Virus record (IMG/VR): IMGVR_UViG_3300001450_000031
Span: 1 to 28,299 of that record
DNA length: 28,299 nucleotides
Source of the DNA: a virus
Direction: 5' to 3' (one strand)
Shown: positions 2,084 to 19,417 of the stretch, piece by piece
Layout of the letters: each line of letters opens with the position of its first letter
How positions within the stretch are numbered: position 1 is the stretch's first letter
Position numbers and translations under genes: made by a program
Notes under the pieces: generated by a model
Seen by the model: the letters and a program-made list of their open reading frames with translations, nothing else
Told to the model about the DNA's origin: nothing
Databases searched by the model: none

Positions 2084-3745
2084 TTAGATTCTATTTAATC
2101 CTGCTACATGGATCTTACCATAAAATTCTGGTCTTACCATTTTCTTAGCATAACGAGTCATTACACCTTTACGTGGAGTAAAGTTTGTAGGATCGTAAAC
2201 TAAAGGAGTCATAATTAACGGAATATATGGTGCGTAAACCGCTCCAGTTTCCAAGAATTGTGTTCCTCTAAAGCCCATCAAGATAGTATTTTCCTTCATG
2301 TATGGGTTTTTGTAAACAGTAAATCTAGAGTTTAATGCTCCAACTTTTTGTACACCCATTGCAAATGACATTGCATTTCCATCAGTATCTGCAGCATATC
2401 CTGGGATTGATTCTAGGATTGTCGCAACTTCTGGAGAAGTTACTAAGAAGTTTGCACCACCTCTAAGAGTTTTTTGGTGAATCTTGTTAGAAACTTTTTG
2501 GATTTTAGTACCTAAAGTTTGGAACCATGTGAATTGTGTATAAGCTTCTGCAGCCGTTGGGCTTAAGAAAGCGTCTGAACCATTGTATGTTTCACCTAAT
2601 GCAGCCGACCAGTAGTCAGTTGTATTTGCATTTGCAAGAAGCATATCTAAAATTTCAAGATCAATTTCCATTGAAATATACTCAGATAACATTGAAGTTA
2701 ATTCAGCTTCAGCGTCAATTGAGTGATATGCATTTAAGTCTTGTGCGAATTCTGGAGACCATGCAGCTTTAAGCTTTCTAGTCTTAGCAACAATCGCTTC
2801 AGATCTTAAATCAACATCAATTTGTGGAATTCCAACATCTTGAGTGTCTAGTGAAGCATCAACGTTAGAACCAACCATTTCAAAGTCGTTTCTTTGGTCA
2901 GCTGTTGTAGCTCCCATGAAATGAACTTTAATACCGTTTTCTGAGTGACCAGCACCACCTGTTGCAGCAGAAACAGATACAAAGAAGTTTGCAGTTGTTC
3001 CATTAACAAAGTTATATGCATTTAAGTTTCTGTCTACAGACATAGAAATTGCAGCTGTTTGTCCTTGTAAACTTTCAACATATGCACTTCTAATTGCAGT
3101 TTCATCCAGTATAAATGTACCATCAGTTACAGATGAAACAGCAACTGCTTGTTTAATTACTTGACCAGCAGCTACAGATGCAGAAAGATCAGCACTAAAG
3201 CCAACATCTTTCCAAGTTGCAGATGAAGATGCGAAAGTAGTAACCGTAACGTCTCTCATTTTAGTAGTATATCCAGCTCTACCACCTCCTGCAGGTGTAT
3301 TACCATATAATCCACCAACTGGGTCTGAGTTAGACTTAGATGTATTACCCATGATATCGCCAGCATAAGCTCCACCATAGTTTGAATTTGTGTCCGTACC
3401 ATACTTAAAGTCTAAGAAAAATACTAGACCAGATGGTAAGTTCATCGGTTGTACGCTTACGAAGTCTTTTGCAGCGATTTCGCCGAAGACTCTACGTACT
3501 AATGGAAGAGCTACGCCCGACCATTGTTCTTTACTCGCAGTACCACTTGAAGTGTTATTAGCCTCGTCGATTAACTGACGTGCTTGATTTTCTAAAAGTA
3601 CAGCCATGCCTGATTTCTCATACTCATGTCCGATTCCTTCTAGTAAACCTGTTTTATCCCACTTATTTACTAACCCTCTTGTTTCTTCAAGCTTGTCAGT
3701 ATATGTAGTATTTGCAGAGTTTAATAAATTTGAAATGTTTGCCAT
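2084..3745 (-). CDS. 23: Major capsid protein, T4 gp23-like
   Basis: 553 residues, close to T4 gp23 (521). Hallmarks are the segment MAVLLENQARQLIDEA (47-62), then WSGVALPLVRRVFGEIAAKD (75-94) and FVSVQPMNLPSGLVFFLDFK (95-114). The C-terminus reads RPEFYGKIHVAGLNRI. It forms the hexamers of the prohead shell. Residues 59-62 read IDE|A, matching the gp21 protease consensus (I/L)xE|A and lying where T4 gp23 is cut (after residue 65), so the mature protein probably starts near A62. The start ATG has a TAGGAG Shine-Dalgarno. It follows gp22 by 29 nt and is closed by the terminator at 2031-2059. Confidence 0.98.
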   Translation of the reverse strand: MANISNLLNSANTTYTDKLEETRGLVNKWDKTGLLEGIGHEYEKSGMAVLLENQARQLIDEANNTSSGTASKEQWSGVALPLVRRVFGEIAAKDFVSVQPMNLPSGLVFFLDFKYGTDTNSNYGGAYAGDIMGNTSKSNSDPVGGLYGNTPAGGGRAGYTTKMRDVTVTTFASSSATWKDVGFSADLSASVAAGQVIKQAVAVSSVTDGTFILDETAIRSAYVESLQGQTAAISMSVDRNLNAYNFVNGTTANFFVSVSAATGGAGHSENGIKVHFMGATTADQRNDFEMVGSNVDASLDTQDVGIPQIDVDLRSEAIVAKTRKLKAAWSPEFAQDLNAYHSIDAEAELTSMLSEYISMEIDLEILDMLLANANTTDYWSAALGETYNGSDAFLSPTAAEAYTQFTWFQTLGTKIQKVSNKIHQKTLRGGANFLVTSPEVATILESIPGYAADTDGNAMSFAMGVQKVGALNSRFTVYKNPYMKENTILMGFRGTQFLETGAVYAPYIPLIMTPLVYDPTNFTPRKGVMTRYAKKMVRPEFYGKIHVAGLNRI

Positions 3746-5454: not shown

Positions 5455-6495
5455 TTATCTAAGATCGATATAGTCTTTACTTGCATCTACTTTTTTAAGA
5501 TCTAGCTTTAATGTTTTGAAATATTTTTGTATACTTCTTGCATATTTAATCATTTCTTTTTGATAATATTTTTCTTCACTCCAAGAGGCTTTATCACCAG
5601 ACTTTAACTTATTGGCTTTATCTCTGTCTGCACCTTTAACTGCACTATTTTCTGCTCGTAAATAGTACTCAAAATCTTGTAGTATATCTCTATAAGCTCT
5701 ATTAATTTTACTAGCAGAATCATTCCAACCAGAAGAAACCTTTTTCTTTTTTAACATGTCTAATTGTTTATCAACAGACGCTTTATACATCTTTGTCACA
5801 GCATCTACCATTTTAATTATTTGGTCGCCTGGACTAGAATTTGCTAATCTATCTCTTAGTATTGTTTCGTATCTACTTCTGTTTTGTTGGGCAACTGTTT
5901 TTGCACCAATAAGTGCAGTTGCTCCTACTTTTGCAGCTGCTCTATCAGCTTTTTTACCACCAGATGAACCTATTTTAGTAAGGTCAATAGTAATTACTTC
6001 ATCAGCAACCTCTGCAAACCTTTTATAGTTGTGTAGGTTTTCAGTATTACCTCCCATTGGGGAACCAGTACTACGTCCTTTAGATTTTTCACCAGTAGCA
6101 GAATATGTTGATTTACCAGTGCCTCTGTCGTATCTGTCTCTACTAACGTGGATCTTTTCTTTTCCTCTAGTTACACCAATAAGTCCTGGTCTAATTGTAC
6201 CTTCCCACGAATAGCCACTTTTTACAAATGGATTTCTTTTATCTTTATTTACAAAAAAGAAGTTTACTAGTTTAGGGTCCGGACCTTTACCGAAAGCTTC
6301 TTCTGGCGCGTTTGCCCAATCTACATCATATGATTTTGCAAATGCTTGAAAGAATTTTGCGTCTGAGCCTTTTAATTTGCCGTATAATTTACTAGCAGTT
6401 TTAGACTGAAACTTTTCGTTTAGCGATTGTTTCTTTTCTTTAAGTACATTAAGTATTGTTTCCTTTACTAATTTTCTAAATGCTGATTTTTTCAT
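5455..6495 (-). CDS. Unrecognised basic protein, candidate internal head protein
   Basis: 346 residues from ATG 6495 (MKKSAFRKLVKETILNVLKE), chosen because GGAG lies 8 nt upstream. Alternatives are 6501, 6510 (forming TAATG with the upstream stop) and 6525. I recognise no family. Visible features are an N-terminal amphipathic helix with LVKE|T, LKE|K and SLNE|K peptides, a central K/R/S/G-rich part (SATGEKSKGRSTGSPMGGN), and a long helical Lys-rich C-terminal half. It sits between gp21 and gp22, the position where T4-type core and internal proteins cluster, so packaging in the head is plausible. A nuclease or ADP-ribosyltransferase fold cannot be judged by eye. Confidence 0.7.
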   Translation of the reverse strand: MKKSAFRKLVKETILNVLKEKKQSLNEKFQSKTASKLYGKLKGSDAKFFQAFAKSYDVDWANAPEEAFGKGPDPKLVNFFFVNKDKRNPFVKSGYSWEGTIRPGLIGVTRGKEKIHVSRDRYDRGTGKSTYSATGEKSKGRSTGSPMGGNTENLHNYKRFAEVADEVITIDLTKIGSSGGKKADRAAAKVGATALIGAKTVAQQNRSRYETILRDRLANSSPGDQIIKMVDAVTKMYKASVDKQLDMLKKKKVSSGWNDSASKINRAYRDILQDFEYYLRAENSAVKGADRDKANKLKSGDKASWSEEKYYQKEMIKYARSIQKYFKTLKLDLKKVDASKDYIDLR

Positions 6496-6509
6496 TGCCA
6501 TTTTCTCCA

Positions 6510-7079
6510 TTACCATTTTTTCCATATGGGGCTATCTGAATTATTCTTTTTTCCAGTTGCTATTCCCCAACGTTGTCCAGCCTTTCCACCAACTCTAGGA
6601 GATATAGTTTCATTTTTTATAGCCTTTGAAACTGTTTTTCTCCTGTTGGCTAAATATTCGTCAGATTTATCTTCATCACCGTCATTATCTATATCACCAT
6701 CTTCTTTTCCAACTGGATCAAGTTTTTCAGCTAGTTCGTAATATCTACCAAGTTTGCCTCCAAGATCTTCATATAGTGATTCAAGTCTTTGTTGTAAAGA
6801 TTCCATTTCTAAAGCAGCTTTTTCAAATAGTTTCGATGTGTTATTTATTTCTTTAACGTCTCTTTTTACAGTTACTCCGTCAAACCAACTTTCTGTTTCA
6901 GACATAATATAATTTCCTGCACCTGAAGAGAGTCTTTTTATAGCTTCTACAACGTCTTTTATATTGTTTTCTCTGTATATGCTATTACCATACTCATTGA
7001 ATTTTGAAACAGCCTCTACAAATGCTTGTTTTTGTTCTGGTGATAACTTAGATTCTTTTAATATTTTCTTTAATTTCAT
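6510..7079 (-). CDS. Candidate core/internal head protein with EF-hand-like loop
   Basis: 189 residues. It starts MKLKKILKE|SKLSPEQ, resembling the T4 capsid-targeting peptide in length and ending in (I/L)xE. Residues 85-120 are a predicted coiled coil (LEMESLQQRLESLYEDLGGK). Residues 129-140 (DIDNDGDEDKSD) match a calcium-binding EF-hand/dockerin-type loop with Asp at positions 1, 3, 5, 7, 9 and 12 and Gly at 6, followed by EYLANRRKTVSKAI. The same loop plus YLxxRR occurs in other marine T4-like head proteins as I remember them. Start ATG with AAGGAG. The stop overlaps the longest possible start of the next gene. Exact function unknown. Confidence 0.7.
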   Translation of the reverse strand: MKLKKILKESKLSPEQKQAFVEAVSKFNEYGNSIYRENNIKDVVEAIKRLSSGAGNYIMSETESWFDGVTVKRDVKEINNTSKLFEKAALEMESLQQRLESLYEDLGGKLGRYYELAEKLDPVGKEDGDIDNDGDEDKSDEYLANRRKTVSKAIKNETISPRVGGKAGQRWGIATGKKNNSDSPIWKKW

Positions 7080-7091
7080 TATATTGTCTCC

Positions 7092-7376
7092 TTATCTTTG
7101 TAGTACTAATATGAATGTTGTAGCATTATCTGATTCTGCACCTGCTAATCCTATTTCATGAACAACACCAATAGCTAAATCATCTAGTTCTATTGTTCCA
7201 CCTCTTGCTAACTTAACCCTACCTAAAATAGTAGAACCAGATATCATAAAGGCTGATGCACCTAAATCACTAGAGCCTGAACTAAAATCCCTAAATTTAT
7301 TACTTACAATTTGTACACCATTGTATCTTCCAAATGGTCCAAACTTATTTAATTCATCAGTTACTAATCCTGCCAT
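7092..7376 (-). CDS. Small structural protein downstream of gp21
   Basis: 94 residues from the ATG at 7376, which overlaps the gp21 stop as TAATG and has GGAGG 6 nt upstream. A TTG start at 7394 would bury the Shine-Dalgarno. The sequence (MAGLVTDELNKFGPFGRYNG, ending DNATTFILVLQR) is beta-prone with SGSTILGRVKLARGGTIEL. Not recognised. Position within the head cluster and coupled translation with gp21 suggest a capsid accessory or decoration role, which is inference only. Confidence 0.7.
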   Translation of the reverse strand: MAGLVTDELNKFGPFGRYNGVQIVSNKFRDFSSGSSDLGASAFMISGSTILGRVKLARGGTIELDDLAIGVVHEIGLAGAESDNATTFILVLQR

Positions 7377-8044
7377 TATTTTCCTCCACAACAAGAATCA
7401 TCAGCTATAGCTGGTATTTCACATTTACCAGTCATTTCGCAAAGAATATCTGAAATTAAGCTGTTCATTTTGCTATATTTATTTGTTTTTATATTTTTGT
7501 TAACACTTTCGTTCATATTAGTTGGGTGCATAAATGCTCCATGGGTTGAAGGATTACTAACAAAGTCCCAGCATATTAGTTCAAAGTCATCTTTAACCTT
7601 AACCATTTGATCGCCGTCTTCGTAAAGTTCTTCTACACTGCCTAAACCTCTAGAACTTATACCTAATTTTACACCAGCCTTTAATAATTCTTTAAGAATA
7701 TTACCTGCAGGGGTTCCAAGTACTTCTACCTCTCCCATCACATCATCGCCTTTCCACCAAACATTTTTTACATTATGGGAAACATTTTGTAAATTAACAA
7801 CGCTTGATTCTGGGTGATCTAATTCTCCTAAAGCTCTGCTTTCAGCAATGTTTATTTTTTTGTAGTTTTTAACCTCTCGCATTAAAATTTCTCGAGGATA
7901 AACCCTTCCATTTTGGTTTTTTGCGTCAGCCCTTTGTAAACACCCAGTTACAATAACTCTACCATTATTTTTTCTTTCAGATTCCACAATCATTTGAGGG
8001 GAAATGTCAAAGCTCGTATAATCTATTAAAAGTTTTTTATTCAT
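7376..8044 (-). CDS. 21: Prohead maturation protease, T4 gp21-like
   Basis: 222 residues, similar to T4 gp21 (212). Serine protease of the herpesvirus-assemblin/gp21 class. The start region has RVIVTGCLQRADAKNQNGRV then YPREIL. The catalytic His lies in GELDHP (H77) and the Ser in KLGISSRGLGS (S130 or S131). The signature DFVSNPSTHGAFM (160-172) is typical. It cleaves scaffold, capsid and internal proteins after (I/L)xE. The tail after about residue 178 ends DDSCCGGK, with four Cys in the last 21 residues, which is unusual. Shine-Dalgarno AAGGGA. It lies between the gp20-linked genes and gp22, as in T4. Confidence 0.93.
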   Translation of the reverse strand: MNKKLLIDYTSFDISPQMIVESERKNNGRVIVTGCLQRADAKNQNGRVYPREILMREVKNYKKINIAESRALGELDHPESSVVNLQNVSHNVKNVWWKGDDVMGEVEVLGTPAGNILKELLKAGVKLGISSRGLGSVEELYEDGDQMVKVKDDFELICWDFVSNPSTHGAFMHPTNMNESVNKNIKTNKYSKMNSLISDILCEMTGKCEIPAIADDSCCGGK

Positions 8045-14181: not shown

Positions 14182-15459
14182 TTAATATTCAAATGGAGGT
14201 GTACCATAGTCTTTTTGACTTATACCATACCAAATATTTCCTACTTGATAGTACCACCATCCATGTTTATTGTCTTCTATAATCTTAAACTTGCCCTTTG
14301 GTAGAGGTGAGTCTTTTTTAGAAGCTCTTGCAATGTATTTTAATACGGGTACTCCATCATCCCATGTTTTATCTGTTTTTCTAGCCTTTACAGATTTTCT
14401 TTTTTCTGTATTAGTTGCCATATGAAGCTTAAATGCTGAATCATCTCCTAAAAAGCTTTTCCATACATCTTCATTTAATTTGCCTTCATTTAACTTGCCT
14501 TCTTTAATGGTTAGAAAAGCTTTTACCATCGGTGCTCCACTAGCTCCTTGCTTCCATTTCATTATATCTTTAACAGCAGCTAACTTTATCTTCTTAACTA
14601 CCGCTTCTGTATCCCATAATTGTTTGCCGTTCCAATTAAACTTATTATCGCCTACTTTTGTAAATGTCATTTTGTAAGCTAGTATCTTGCCACCTATTTT
14701 AAGGTCTTTCATTCTCATTCTAAGGTTAACTCTAAAATTAGCTGCTCTCTGAGAGAAGTCTTCATTTAATTTGCCTTCATTAACACCTTCAAAAGCTGAT
14801 TTAGTTGGTTTTCCTTTGAGAGCTTGTTTGCATTCTTTATTGAATCTTTTTAACCAACCAGTAGCTTGTGATGCATATCCATCTTGCATCTTTTCAATAG
14901 CCATGTTTAGTGTAGATGCTATTTCATCTGCATATTCATCATCTATTCTATCAAATTTATCTGATAGTTTAACTAGTGCATCTTCACCAACCTTTTTAGT
15001 GATCTTTGAACCTATAGTTAATAGTGGTTTTAGCCCTCTTGCTAACGCTTCATTAACTTTGCCTTCTTTATTTATAGACTTAGCAGCTTTAACGGCATCT
15101 TTGTGTGCTTTAGAGTTTTTATGTGCTGGTTTTTCGCCTCTTTTTCTTTTGGCATGTATATTTGCCCAAAGTCCTTTACTTTTTTCCGTTAACTCATCCT
15201 CGATTGGCTCTGTTTGTAGTGCTTTGTTAAAGTCTTTTTCAGCCTTTACTACTTGTGCATGCATTTTTATTAGACCTTGTTTTAGTTTTTCTTTTTTCTT
15301 AGGGTCTTTTTCACTAACAAAGGCTTTCCTTAACTCTTGCTGATTTAACTGGATTTTTTTATATGTTTCAATTGCTTTAGTAAAATTTTTTGTAATACTT
15401 TCTAGTAAAACACTAACTAGTTCATCAGCTATTATTTCTTTTAATATTTTTTTTTTCAT
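14182..15459 (-). CDS. Modular protein with repeated GKLNE cleavage-like motifs
   Basis: 425 residues with no whole-length family recognised. The N-terminus MKKKILKE|IIADELVSVLLE|S resembles capsid-targeting peptides. (E)GK(L/V)NE occurs at residues 132-137, 228-233, 320-325 and 326-330 and splits the protein into parts: a Lys-rich helical part; a basic linker with KGLWANIHAKRKRGEKP (96-112), a short motif I recall from many marine phage proteins; a helical domain (138-227); an alpha/beta piece (234-319, NKFNWNGKQLWD); and a beta-rich C-terminal piece (331-425) ending WYYQVGNIWYGISQKDYG. Each repeat fits (L/V)NE|(A/G/D). I infer a polyprotein of internal head proteins cut by gp21. A simpler reading is linker repeats in one structural protein. 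Confidence 0.7.
   Translation of the reverse strand: MKKKILKEIIADELVSVLLESITKNFTKAIETYKKIQLNQQELRKAFVSEKDPKKKEKLKQGLIKMHAQVVKAEKDFNKALQTEPIEDELTEKSKGLWANIHAKRKRGEKPAHKNSKAHKDAVKAAKSINKEGKVNEALARGLKPLLTIGSKITKKVGEDALVKLSDKFDRIDDEYADEIASTLNMAIEKMQDGYASQATGWLKRFNKECKQALKGKPTKSAFEGVNEGKLNEDFSQRAANFRVNLRMRMKDLKIGGKILAYKMTFTKVGDNKFNWNGKQLWDTEAVVKKIKLAAVKDIMKWKQGASGAPMVKAFLTIKEGKLNEGKLNEDVWKSFLGDDSAFKLHMATNTEKRKSVKARKTDKTWDDGVPVLKYIARASKKDSPLPKGKFKIIEDNKHGWWYYQVGNIWYGISQKDYGTPPFEY
14470..14499. repeat. Tandem 15-bp repeat encoding GKLNE GKLNE
   Basis: TTCATTTAATTTGCC and TTCATTTAACTTGCC lie head to tail (one mismatch). An identical third copy is at 14761-14775 and a diverged fourth at 15049-15063. 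All encode GK(L/V)NE in the same frame of one gene. Conserved spacing to domain edges suggests selection at the peptide level. Confidence 0.85.
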
Positions 15460-16340: not shown

Positions 16341-18719
16341 TTAGAAAGTCATCATGCCAGCAATTTGATTTACTGGTGCAAATGCTCCTGTTAATTTATA
16401 CGTATTTCCTTTATATATAAAAACTAATCCTTCACTTGGAATTATAGTTTTAAATCCTCCTATTGAAGCAACCTTTTTTAGCTGTTGAGTCATTCTATTT
16501 AATTTTTTAAGGTCTCCACCTTTTCTAACATCACTAATTGCTTTTGCAACCTGTTTTCTGACGTTTTGAATTGCTTTGTCTGGGTTTGCAGCTAAAAAAC
16601 CCTCTACGTTTTTAAGTACTTCAGCACCTAGTTCAAAGAATATAGTTTCAAATGGTAGCATATTTTTCTTTACCTGGTCTGCGTGATTTAGTTTATCAAA
16701 ATCTTTAGCTTTGGCTAATATTGCTTCATCAGAAATTGTTTTTTTATCTAATCTAAAAGATTTATCAAAAAATGCCCAACGTTTAACCAATCCCATTTTA
16801 ATTGTATTATCAATACCTTTTATTTTTGTGTCAACAAAATTTTCCCACCATACTTGGTGATAATATGAAAAAGAATCTGAATCTTTCATTTTATATTTTT
16901 TCATAAGTTTACTTAATTTACTTAAAAAATATGGTTTTTTAGCTGAATAGTCTTGGTGAGGATTTATTTTAAGAATCTTTGGGCCTATAATAGAAAAGTT
17001 TTTTTGTACCGATTGATTTATTTGCGCAATCATTCCCGCAAGTATTCTTGCACCATCACTAACTGATCCAATTGCTGTACCTCCCTTATATTTTAATACA
17101 TTATGGAATTGTAAATATGGTGCGTCATAGGTAATTACGTTTGCAGATGCTGGAAACATGATTTCCATATTTACCCAATTGTTACCGTTATCAAATATTT
17201 TTTCTTGTTGTTTTAGATTAAGGCTTCCTATTGCTTTTTCAAGATCTTTCATTGCAAAAGTGAAGGCCTTTTCTATATTACCTCTACCTTTAAATTTTGA
17301 AGCAACTGCTTTGTAATCCATTCCTCCCTTTTTAAGGTCTCCAGTATTTCTAGCTGCTAGCATTTTACCGTTCCAACTTACAAATAGGTTTTGTCCATCT
17401 GTTTTTTCAGTTGCTGCTTTTTCTAGGTCAAGATTTCCTTGGAGTGCAAGGTCTATAATTTGTTTAAAGTCTCCAAAGGTTAAATTTCTATCATCAAAGG
17501 GGTGTGACATATGGCCATAGGCTCCTCCTTCTAATAATAATTGTTTTGCAATCCATTGTCCTAAATTTTCATTAGTAGTATTTACAGATATATTTTTTGG
17601 AAAAGAAACTTTTTTTCCTAGTTTTTGTTTTTTAAGGGTATTTTTAATATTGCTCATTTCTTTACTTTGTTTTATAGGTTCTTTTTTGGATTGCTTAATT
17701 GATTTTTCTGCCCCTAAGTACTCTATGAATTTAAACCCTGATTGTTGTGCTAAATATTTTGACCAACGTTTCCACCTATTATATGCTGCCGTACCAACTC
17801 TATCCTTTATATAATTTGTACCTCCAGATACATTAGCAGCTCCTGTTGCAGGTATACCAACAGGAAAATAAGATACACCGCCAGTGGGTCCATCAGGGTA
17901 TGCTGTTCCGTGTTGAAAAAATTCTTCTTCTGGTACAAGATAATTTAGTACATTCATACCTAACCTAAATGCCATTTTTTTAGTATCTGTCCTATATGAT
18001 TTTTGGGTACCATAAAAATATCTTGGACCATCATCAACACCCCTTTGGCCTGGTAAAGTGTTACTTGCTTCCTTTATTATTTTTTTCAAATCAGTTTTAA
18101 TAAAGAAATTTTCCATAACTTCATTAAGCTTTTCTAATTTATTTACTATGAGTTCATAGTTTTTAGTATGGCCAAATATTCCTTTAAATACCTTTGTCTT
18201 TTCTTTTTTATCTAAGTCTTTATCACCTAAAGCCTTTCTAATTGCAGTACCACTCATTTCACCATAACCAGGTACTGTTAGGCTTACGTGGGGAGCTATA
18301 TATGTATATGCACCATCCTTATATCCAACCTCAGCTTTACCTTTCCAAGGCCTAAAAAACTTACCACCTAATCTACTAGCATCTTTTTTACCAACAACAA
18401 ATACTGCAGCTGTAGTTTTAGCATCGTATTTTTTTAATATTTCTTCTGCTTTATATGTGTTTTTAACCTGTACTACTTTAGAAATTCCATATGATTTTAT
18501 TATTTTTTTCTTTTCAGCAAATGTAAATGGAGACTTAGGCAAATCAACCTTACCACTGGTTGCTACATATGCGTCTTTGAATTTAGAACTAACATGTTTA
18601 TATACTTCAGCATGATGTTTACCCATAGGTTGAAATCTACCAGGATATATAGCAACAACTGTTGTTATCTTTTTTTCTTCTAAAAGTATTTGATTTGCTA
18701 CCCACTTACCTAAACTCAT
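16341..18719 (-). CDS. Fusion: nucleotidylyltransferase + middle domain + RNA-ligase-like domain
   Basis: 792 residues. Domain 1 (about 17-200) is a HIGH-superfamily nucleotidylyltransferase (NMNAT/cytidylyltransferase type): VVAIYPGRFQPMGKHHAEVY (21-40), where the first His of HxGH is Gly, and GEMSGTAIRKAL (153-164) as the ISTxxR-type motif. Domain 2 (about 218-385) is unrecognised (RGVDDGPRYFYGTQKSYRTD). Domain 3 (about 398-792) has covalent nucleotidyltransferase motifs: motif I KTDGQN (K439 candidate nucleophile), a motif III-like NMEIMF (E519), motif IV EGLVFIYKG (E763) and motif V YKLTG (K775), fitting an RNA-ligase-like enzyme. The peptides LGKWVANQILLEE (3-15), KKIIKE|A (212-218) and LGQWIAKQLLLE|G (386-398) sit at domain edges and resemble gp21 sites. 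The start overlaps the kinase stop (ATGA). Confidence 0.8.
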   Translation of the reverse strand: MSLGKWVANQILLEEKKITTVVAIYPGRFQPMGKHHAEVYKHVSSKFKDAYVATSGKVDLPKSPFTFAEKKKIIKSYGISKVVQVKNTYKAEEILKKYDAKTTAAVFVVGKKDASRLGGKFFRPWKGKAEVGYKDGAYTYIAPHVSLTVPGYGEMSGTAIRKALGDKDLDKKEKTKVFKGIFGHTKNYELIVNKLEKLNEVMENFFIKTDLKKIIKEASNTLPGQRGVDDGPRYFYGTQKSYRTDTKKMAFRLGMNVLNYLVPEEEFFQHGTAYPDGPTGGVSYFPVGIPATGAANVSGGTNYIKDRVGTAAYNRWKRWSKYLAQQSGFKFIEYLGAEKSIKQSKKEPIKQSKEMSNIKNTLKKQKLGKKVSFPKNISVNTTNENLGQWIAKQLLLEGGAYGHMSHPFDDRNLTFGDFKQIIDLALQGNLDLEKAATEKTDGQNLFVSWNGKMLAARNTGDLKKGGMDYKAVASKFKGRGNIEKAFTFAMKDLEKAIGSLNLKQQEKIFDNGNNWVNMEIMFPASANVITYDAPYLQFHNVLKYKGGTAIGSVSDGARILAGMIAQINQSVQKNFSIIGPKILKINPHQDYSAKKPYFLSKLSKLMKKYKMKDSDSFSYYHQVWWENFVDTKIKGIDNTIKMGLVKRWAFFDKSFRLDKKTISDEAILAKAKDFDKLNHADQVKKNMLPFETIFFELGAEVLKNVEGFLAANPDKAIQNVRKQVAKAISDVRKGGDLKKLNRMTQQLKKVASIGGFKTIIPSEGLVFIYKGNTYKLTGAFAPVNQIAGMMTF

Positions 18720-19417
18720 GATTTTCTCAACTCCAATTCTTTTTTAATCCACTGTTTAGCTATGTGGTTTTGTAATGGTTTTTTTATGAATTTATTTGCT
18801 CCTTTTTTAACAACATCTGGAAACTCTTTTTTTTCTGAATTATCAACAACAAGCATATTACTTGAACCAAAAAGCGCTTGGAATTTACCCATATTGTTTT
18901 GTACGGCTTGCCAAGAACTTTTTACTAATTCTGATGGAAGTTTTCTATCTCTTTCAAAATTTCTTTGTAAAGCTACCTCAAGATCAGTGTTTACAAAAAT
19001 CATAAAACAGTCATAACCTACAGCTTGTAGTTTCTTTTTTTGTTTTGCTATGTTTCCATAGTTTTTACCTGTTCCATCTATAAGAAGGCCAAGCCTTCCA
19101 TTAATATAGTTTCTAAGGGCAGTGTCTCTAACCTGTTTACTTTTATTTCGCAGTATCATTGCAAGTTTATGGTCATCATTACTGAGCTTTGATATATCTT
19201 GGCTTAATCCCTTCATTTGTAAAAATGTTTCAAAGTACTTATCACTATTAACAGATTTTAATCCTTGAGCAGAAACGAATGGCATTTTCTCTGGCATTCC
19301 AAAAAGTGAAGATGCAGCATATGATTTACCACTACCAGGACCACCCGCAGTAAACACTGCTTTGAAAATACCTGGATCGTATACACCTTCGTTTAGTATA
19401 TCTTTTAATTTAATCAT
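18716..19417 (-). CDS. P-loop kinase (zeta-toxin/polynucleotide-kinase-like)
   Basis: 233 residues. After a short N-terminal peptide MIKLKDILNE|G, residues 18-32 give the strand and Walker A (FKAVFTAGGPGSGKS; GGPGSGKS 25-32). NSDK (57-60) offers a catalytic Asp, LLIDGTGKN (111-119) is the Walker B region, and RNFERDRKLP (152-161) is an Arg-rich lid. This is the AAA_33/zeta-toxin fold that phosphorylates nucleotides, nucleic-acid ends or UDP-sugars; substrate unknown. The peptide ahead of the fold matches the T4 capsid-targeting pattern (10 residues ending LNE|G). No Shine-Dalgarno. The next gene encodes an RNA-ligase-like domain, so a kinase plus ligase end-repair pair is possible. Confidence 0.82.
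   Translation of the reverse strand: MIKLKDILNEGVYDPGIFKAVFTAGGPGSGKSYAASSLFGMPEKMPFVSAQGLKSVNSDKYFETFLQMKGLSQDISKLSNDDHKLAMILRNKSKQVRDTALRNYINGRLGLLIDGTGKNYGNIAKQKKKLQAVGYDCFMIFVNTDLEVALQRNFERDRKLPSELVKSSWQAVQNNMGKFQALFGSSNMLVVDNSEKKEFPDVVKKGANKFIKKPLQNHIAKQWIKKELELRKS

Follow-up and report, generated by a model that had tools for sequence, protein, structure and literature searches.

Two adjacent genes of a marine T4-like virus of bacteria encode a kinase and a three-domain fusion protein that carry, at their N-termini and at each internal domain boundary, short sequences ending in [IL]xE, the motif after which the prohead protease gp21 of phage T4 cuts. From comparison with relatives and analogy with T4 we consider that these proteins are probably internal head proteins, that is, packaged enzymes whose tags are trimmed and whose domains are separated by gp21. 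The genes lie in the window, the whole stretch of DNA analysed here (28,299 nucleotides, positions 1 to 28,299 of IMG/VR virus record IMGVR_UViG_3300001450_000031), which is 28 kb out of a 67-kb record. In T4, gp21 cleaves after L/I-x-E, and propeptides of 10-19 residues are targeting sequences; with Asp in place of the Glu, processing is blocked while targeting persists (PMC9026906). A first-pass annotation of the window had proposed that the enzymes are packaged, cut apart by the virus's own gp21 and delivered to the host. We gathered relatives from viral contigs and isolates and mapped four domains with profiles: kinase (K), nucleotidyltransferase (N), middle domain (M) and ligase (G). All window features given by coordinates are on the minus strand, and an arrow (↓) marks a candidate cut.

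Candidate protease sites in the kinase and the fusion protein

The kinase (18716..19417, 233 amino acids) is a P-loop enzyme of the Zeta-toxin/polynucleotide-kinase-like type, with the Walker A sequence GGPGSGKS, Pfam matches to Zeta_toxin (6.7e-11; 42.4 bits, cut-off 22.3) and AAA_33 (5.7e-5), and PHROG matches to 2071 (ATPase) and 505 (polynucleotide kinase). Its candidate capsid-targeting peptide, MIKLKDILNE↓G (19388..19417), has the 10-residue length of the T4 IPIII tag, and the predicted cut after E10 is at the only position in the protein that fits the strict pattern [ILV]xE↓[AGSN]. Unique junctions among the relatives had Glu at P1 in 92/92 and L, I, V or F at P3 in 92/92, with a free P2 (3.06 bits) and Gly or Ala at P1'; here and for the ligase the counts omit one mis-parsed row per set. 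The aligned LxE was found in 100% of 104 kinase N-termini. Kinases of isolates start MIPFILKE↓G (HTVC008M) and MKTFAELQE↓G (Melnitz).

The fusion protein (16341..18719, 792 amino acids) begins with MSLGKWVANQILLE (18678..18719), a candidate N-terminal targeting peptide of 14 residues with a predicted cut after E14; this start carries LGKWVANQILLE, and LGKWVANQILLEE spans residues 3-15. At 10 and 14 residues, the kinase and fusion peptides both fall within the range of T4-type capsid targeting sequences (CTS; ∼7-20 residues, ending L/I-x-E). Homologues with the N-M-G order have [ILVF]xE at the place of this tag, and an aligned LxE was present in 86% of 93 fusion N-termini (P2 entropy 3.1 bits). 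The first domain (residues 18-200, 18120..18668) is a HIGH-superfamily nucleotidyltransferase of the NMNAT/PPAT type, as indicated by its GRFQPxxxxH motif (GRFQPMGKHH), a Rossmann-like fold and best Foldseek matches to PPAT and NMNAT (prob 1.00). It matched phrog_395 at 1e-5 and Pfam CTP_transf_like at 0.0017, under the curated cut-off, which is reached in the homologues L130 and L131. The linker that follows (18069..18122) holds two LxE sites, LNE200 and IIKE217↓A, and E200 and E217 were invariant in 36/36 homologues, including five polyproteins, though the surrounding linker varies. The middle domain, with a DDGP motif (residues 218-345, 17685..18068), was mostly modelled with low confidence, and its profile proved too weakly conserved for a search of the collection. 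In relatives the sites ahead of it read FLLE↓S, IIKE↓A or LLE↓A, and the set of nearest sites before M comprised 129 unique junctions. Ahead of the ligase domain stands a second, internal targeting-like peptide, LGQWIAKQLLLE↓G (17529..17564), with a predicted cut after E397; at this junction P1 was Glu in 83/97 unique sequences, with L or I at P3 and a free P2 (2.39 bits). The strict pattern occurs in the fusion at positions 203, 217 and 397 only, and in the full-length model linkers 213-238 and 386-409 were under pLDDT 50. There is an [IL]xE site at each domain boundary (E14, E200, E217 and E397), in flexible linkers, as would be expected of internal gp21 sites.

The C-terminal domain (16344..17528) contains the motif I sequence EKTDGQN, of which the K, D and G were invariant in 85 sequences. 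Modelled alone with AlphaFold (pLDDT 89, pTM 0.85), it gave Naegleria RNA ligase as its top VIA-align match (Z 9.0, 184 aligned, 3.9 Å), followed by fungal Trl1 (Z 8.3) and T4 Rnl1 (Z 8.2). No RNA-ligase sequence match was obtained in Pfam, PHROG, NCBIfam or PDB; the PDB sequence hits looked like chance matches and were discarded. Since no sequence family matched, the assignment rests on fold and motif: as modelled, the domain would belong to the RNA-ligase superfamily, with an adenylyltransferase fold and a KxDG motif I, at moderate Z scores.

The first-pass annotation had given positions for gp21 (7376-8044), for the kinase and its start MIKLKDILNE↓G, and for the start tag of the fusion, KKIIKE↓A ending at E217 and LGQWIAKQLLLE↓G ending at E397, and all of these proved exact. 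Its label "nucleotidyltransferase/ligase" was also right, judging from the Foldseek matches to PPAT/NMNAT, the RNA-ligase fold and motif I. The near-copy of the start tag that it saw before the ligase is present, but in full it is limited to one subclade, while others keep only the [LI]xE↓GG end. Recent duplication as the source of the two tags was rejected, there being no DNA repeat at either place among the repeat families found.

The window supplies both the presumed protease and a calibration of its specificity. A T4-type head block encodes capsid protein, scaffold, gp21 protease, portal and terminase, followed by the kinase/fusion region. The gp21-like protein (7376..8044) belongs to prohead protease family S77, with profile matches to Pfam Peptidase_S77 (E 9e-31) and PHROG 207, head maturation protease (6e-53), within this cluster. 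Its own N-terminus reads MIVE↓S, and among 37 orthologues 92% align an LxE there, with 3.0 bits of entropy at P2. The major capsid protein (2084..3745) contains the site QLIDE61↓A62, at which 81 homologues of the clade had Glu at P1 (81/81) and I, V or L at P3 (81/81), a variable P2, and mostly A, S or N at P1'. In sequence, therefore, the enzyme junctions show the same pattern as the expected capsid-protein cut site of their own clade.

Statistics of the motif and shuffling of the domains

We searched for LxE in the ∼25 residues before each domain in cluster representatives and compared the counts with 500 composition shuffles. The motif preceded the kinase in 45/45 representatives (shuffles 22.8, maximum 32), the middle domain in 66/66 (45.4, maximum 56), the ligase in 23/25 (16.1, maximum 22) and the nucleotidyltransferase in 18/18 (9.6, maximum 14), and thus for all four domains the observed counts were above every one of the shuffles. 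These figures bear on the explanation that chance and composition bias suffice, Glu/Leu-rich linkers often yielding LxE. LxE does turn up in roughly every second shuffled window or more often, and the modest enrichment of the N-terminal pattern in a single genome, described below, fits such an origin too. It was nevertheless already disfavoured by the counts over all 500 shuffles for four domains and by the conservation of specific sites. Given the relatives, a chance origin of the junction motif is very unlikely, and we give this explanation next to no probability.

As a control, the proteins of the window were screened for two features together: LxE aligned at the N-terminus of no fewer than 85% of the orthologues, and a free P2 with more than 2.5 bits of entropy. 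Only four showed both, namely gp21, the fusion, the kinase and the product of open reading frame (ORF) 14182-15459, described below; portal, terminase and PhoH did not.

The four domains occur in many orders. We counted 123 ORFs with K alone, 112 with N-M-G, 29 with K-N-M-G (single chains of up to 1759 amino acids), 4 with M-K and 4 with N-G, and one ORF each with M-N-G, G-N and K-M-K; M was also found fused with a DnaQ-type exonuclease. Through these different orders the LxE joint accompanies almost all of the domains, both at the start of a chain and within it. Internal kinase junctions read PLKE↓G, PLTE↓A or QLNE↓A, a stand-alone ligase (L158) starts MKFLKSYEEFLNENLILE↓GG, and the same tag type, MSLGTWLAEQIL, heads another protein, the M-K of L120. 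An inserted KOW-like segment (EDITIPIxIGDT...) is likewise bracketed by LxE joints.

Tagged enzymes in other phages

T4-GC190, a cyanophage core protein and putative cytidylyltransferase, was reported by mass spectrometry in purified virions of cyanophage S-SM1 (PMC3037559). In S-SM1 it starts MKKFSAFLNE↓A, almost the tag of the T4 internal proteins, and its relatives start similarly (Syn9, MKKFSAFLSE↓A; S-ShM2, MKKFSTFISE↓A; S-WAM1, MRFRQFIIE↓A). The gene adjacent to GC190 is related to HTVC008M gp127 (Pfam DUF6267), and PHROG 395 is common to the window nucleotidyltransferase and the HTVC008M relative of GC190. In the literature searched, which was covered in part, we found no earlier account of the GC190 tag, of a cyanophage CTS or of a prohead protease that processes polyproteins. 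The kinase homologue of Atu_ph07, gp053 (L163:11254-13590), consists of an N-terminal region, then VTE↓G, then the kinase; it lies in a cluster, coding sequences 31-76, with 29 virion-detected proteins, which may include gp053 itself.

Some further arrangements were noted in these and other genomes. The N-terminal region of gp053 looks ADP-ribosyltransferase-like by eye, without Pfam support. In HTVC008M, gp126-133 (L161:9194-15974; DUF6267, KOW-like, kinase, cytidylyltransferase and others) include 5/8 proteins that start with [ILVF]xE followed by a small residue. The ORF at L282:6624-8732 has a tag-like start, MRFKEYIKTIPIKE↓A, and then a fusion of a Pol-beta-type nucleotidyltransferase with a cytidylyltransferase. 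GC1137 of S-ShM2 (L451:5921-6814) closes with a series of motif sites, MME↓ASLME↓SGLFSE↓S...LSE↓G, resembling a scaffold or a protein cut many times.

A cassette polyprotein and other tag-like starts in the window

Three genes downstream of the fusion, ORF 14182-15459 encodes a cassette polyprotein of 425 amino acids with repeated (K/G)(L/V)NE↓ junctions. Its first and last modules are constant in most relatives, and the middle cassettes differ, each ending (K/S)(L/V/I)NE↓. Four 23-nucleotide direct repeats encoding EGK(L/V)NE (14468-14490, 14483-14505, 14759-14781 and 15047-15069, within 14468..15069) could serve as recombination joints; because the joints are encoded by direct repeats, part of their sameness may be at the DNA level. 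The protein also contains a GLWANIHAKRKRGE module that is found near GC190 in S-ShM2. Tag-like starts were seen in two ORFs of the head block, 6510-7079 (MKLKKILKE↓S, with the motif aligned in only half of the orthologues) and 5455-6525 (SLNE↓K).

Weighing of alternative explanations

Several observations weigh against the view that these enzymes are packaged and cut. Firstly, when the N-terminal pattern was counted in HTVC008M, it was found in 31/179 genes versus 17 expected; the enrichment exists, at about twofold, but with such numbers the bare pattern is not diagnostic in one genome, and the evidential weight lies in the conservation of sequence across relatives. Secondly, LxE is depleted inside the domains (ratio 0.22-0.60), but the control AxE is depleted too, and we therefore see no specific avoidance of sites within domains. 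Thirdly, a direct relation between GC190 and the window nucleotidyltransferase was rejected when the profile of the window domain did not retrieve GC190, so that the support from GC190 is an analogy of tag and enzyme class and not orthology. Lastly, at the ligase junction Met replaces Glu in 13/97 unique sequences that retain the domains. The first-pass annotation had named loss of the Glu from homologues that keep the domains as a result that would count against it, and such loss does occur, in a minority.

The replacement by Met fits an alternative in which trimming is N-terminal only, the internal LxE motifs are uncut relics of once-separate tagged genes, and the chain is one multifunctional packaged protein. 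The tag's near-copy within the fusion chain does resemble a fused second gene, and 13/14 mapped prohead-protease cuts in phage SPN3US take off N-terminal propeptides (PMC10052503). However, internal P1 Glu with a free P2 has been kept over large distances, at E217 (36/36) and at the M junction, which is unlike a relic, and in T4 several internal cuts are made in the scaffold protein gp22, in gp67 and in others (PMC9026906). On balance we judge this alternative unlikely.

We also considered that the peptides might be docking or structural helices, with the Glu a part of the folds (for example, as an N-cap in the kinase) and no packaging involved. In the kinase the spacing between the E↓G and the P-loop is indeed fixed. 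Against this, one P3/P1 pattern is shared by the sites ahead of four unrelated folds and by the junctions of the unrelated cassette protein, the distance of LxE from DDGP varies (mostly 8-14 residues) in regions modelled as disordered, and a tag-bearing enzyme has been reported in virions. Such a purely structural role therefore appears quite improbable to us.

Proposed mechanism

Returning to packaging and cutting by gp21, we propose that the N-terminal peptide (∼10-20 residues, ending [IL]xE) would lead an enzyme or chain into the prohead core. During head maturation gp21 would cut after the Glu of the tag and also after the matching Glu in disordered interdomain linkers, and the chain (N-M-G, or K-N-M-G in relatives) would thereby become separate enzymes within the head, which may be small enough to exit through the tail along with the DNA. 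The kinase, the HIGH-family nucleotidyltransferase and the RNA-ligase-fold enzyme could then act at once in the cell, the most plausible roles being the mending of cleaved RNA or nucleotide or cofactor chemistry against early host defence. Judged by their folds, the kinase and ligase together suggest RNA end repair, and the nucleotidyltransferase suggests cofactor or nucleotide chemistry. Core targeting, prohead cutting and ejection are inferred from T4 (PMC9026906). The interpretation in the first-pass annotation thus fares differently in its two halves: comparison strongly supports targeting and cutting, through the gp21 motif, the match to the capsid-protein site, the travelling of the motif with the domains and the CTS-bearing nucleotidyltransferase of S-SM1 virions, whereas we infer virion presence, delivery and substrates.

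A broader proposal, to which we give about even chances, is that widespread T4-like phages build their injected kit as shuffled polyproteins jointed by prohead-protease sites, sometimes by KLNE↓ encoded in short DNA repeats; one tag would load several enzymes, head maturation would free them, and a packaged set for RNA repair or nucleotide chemistry would act before phage expression. Most injected phage proteins go unrecognised because they have no sequence mark. If the [IL]xE junction rule is true, the packaged proteins of T4-like marine phages would become readable from genomes and metagenomes, and cassettes could be listed as candidate first-minute effectors. The head maturation protease would then double as a polyprotein processor, like the proteases of many animal viruses, and RNA repair or nucleotide chemistry would be placed at the moment of DNA entry.

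Comparison with known systems

T4 makes Pnkp and Rnl1 after infection. The window pairs a kinase with an RNA-ligase-fold enzyme as do this T4 RNA repair system and fungal Trl1, but unlike the T4 pair its kinase and ligase are candidate cargo. The T4 internal proteins IPI-III and Alt are similar in having a short N-terminal [IL]xE peptide before the mature protein and a gp21-type protease encoded beside the head genes, and Alt, an ADP-ribosyltransferase, is a precedent for enzyme cargo. In contrast to them, several enzyme domains are present here per chain, each junction between them having its candidate site, and the candidate cargo comprises an RNA-ligase-fold enzyme, a nucleotidyltransferase and a kinase. 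GC190 of S-SM1, Syn9 and S-ShM2 shares the HIGH-superfamily nucleotidyltransferase class and a T4-like tag, but the cyanophage genes are mostly separate and distant in sequence from the window chain. In phiKZ and SPN3US, prohead proteases likewise cut head proteins, including ejection proteins, after a short x-x-E motif, with the differences that the specificity is A/S-x-E and that the mapped cuts remove propeptides without dividing an enzyme chain; freeing more than one enzyme from a single chain would therefore be new. Among published ideas, the nearest to shuffled, injected proteins is that of polyvalent proteins, the multi-domain, shuffled effectors of phages and conjugative elements that are delivered with DNA and for which proteolytic release of domains was proposed (Iyer et al. 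2017, PMC5512222). The window proteins and their relatives have the same multi-domain, shuffled architecture among phage late genes, but whereas processing of polyvalent proteins was proposed to occur via fused protease domains (e.g. in P1 DdrB), the sequences here imply T4-type sites and a head protease encoded separately.

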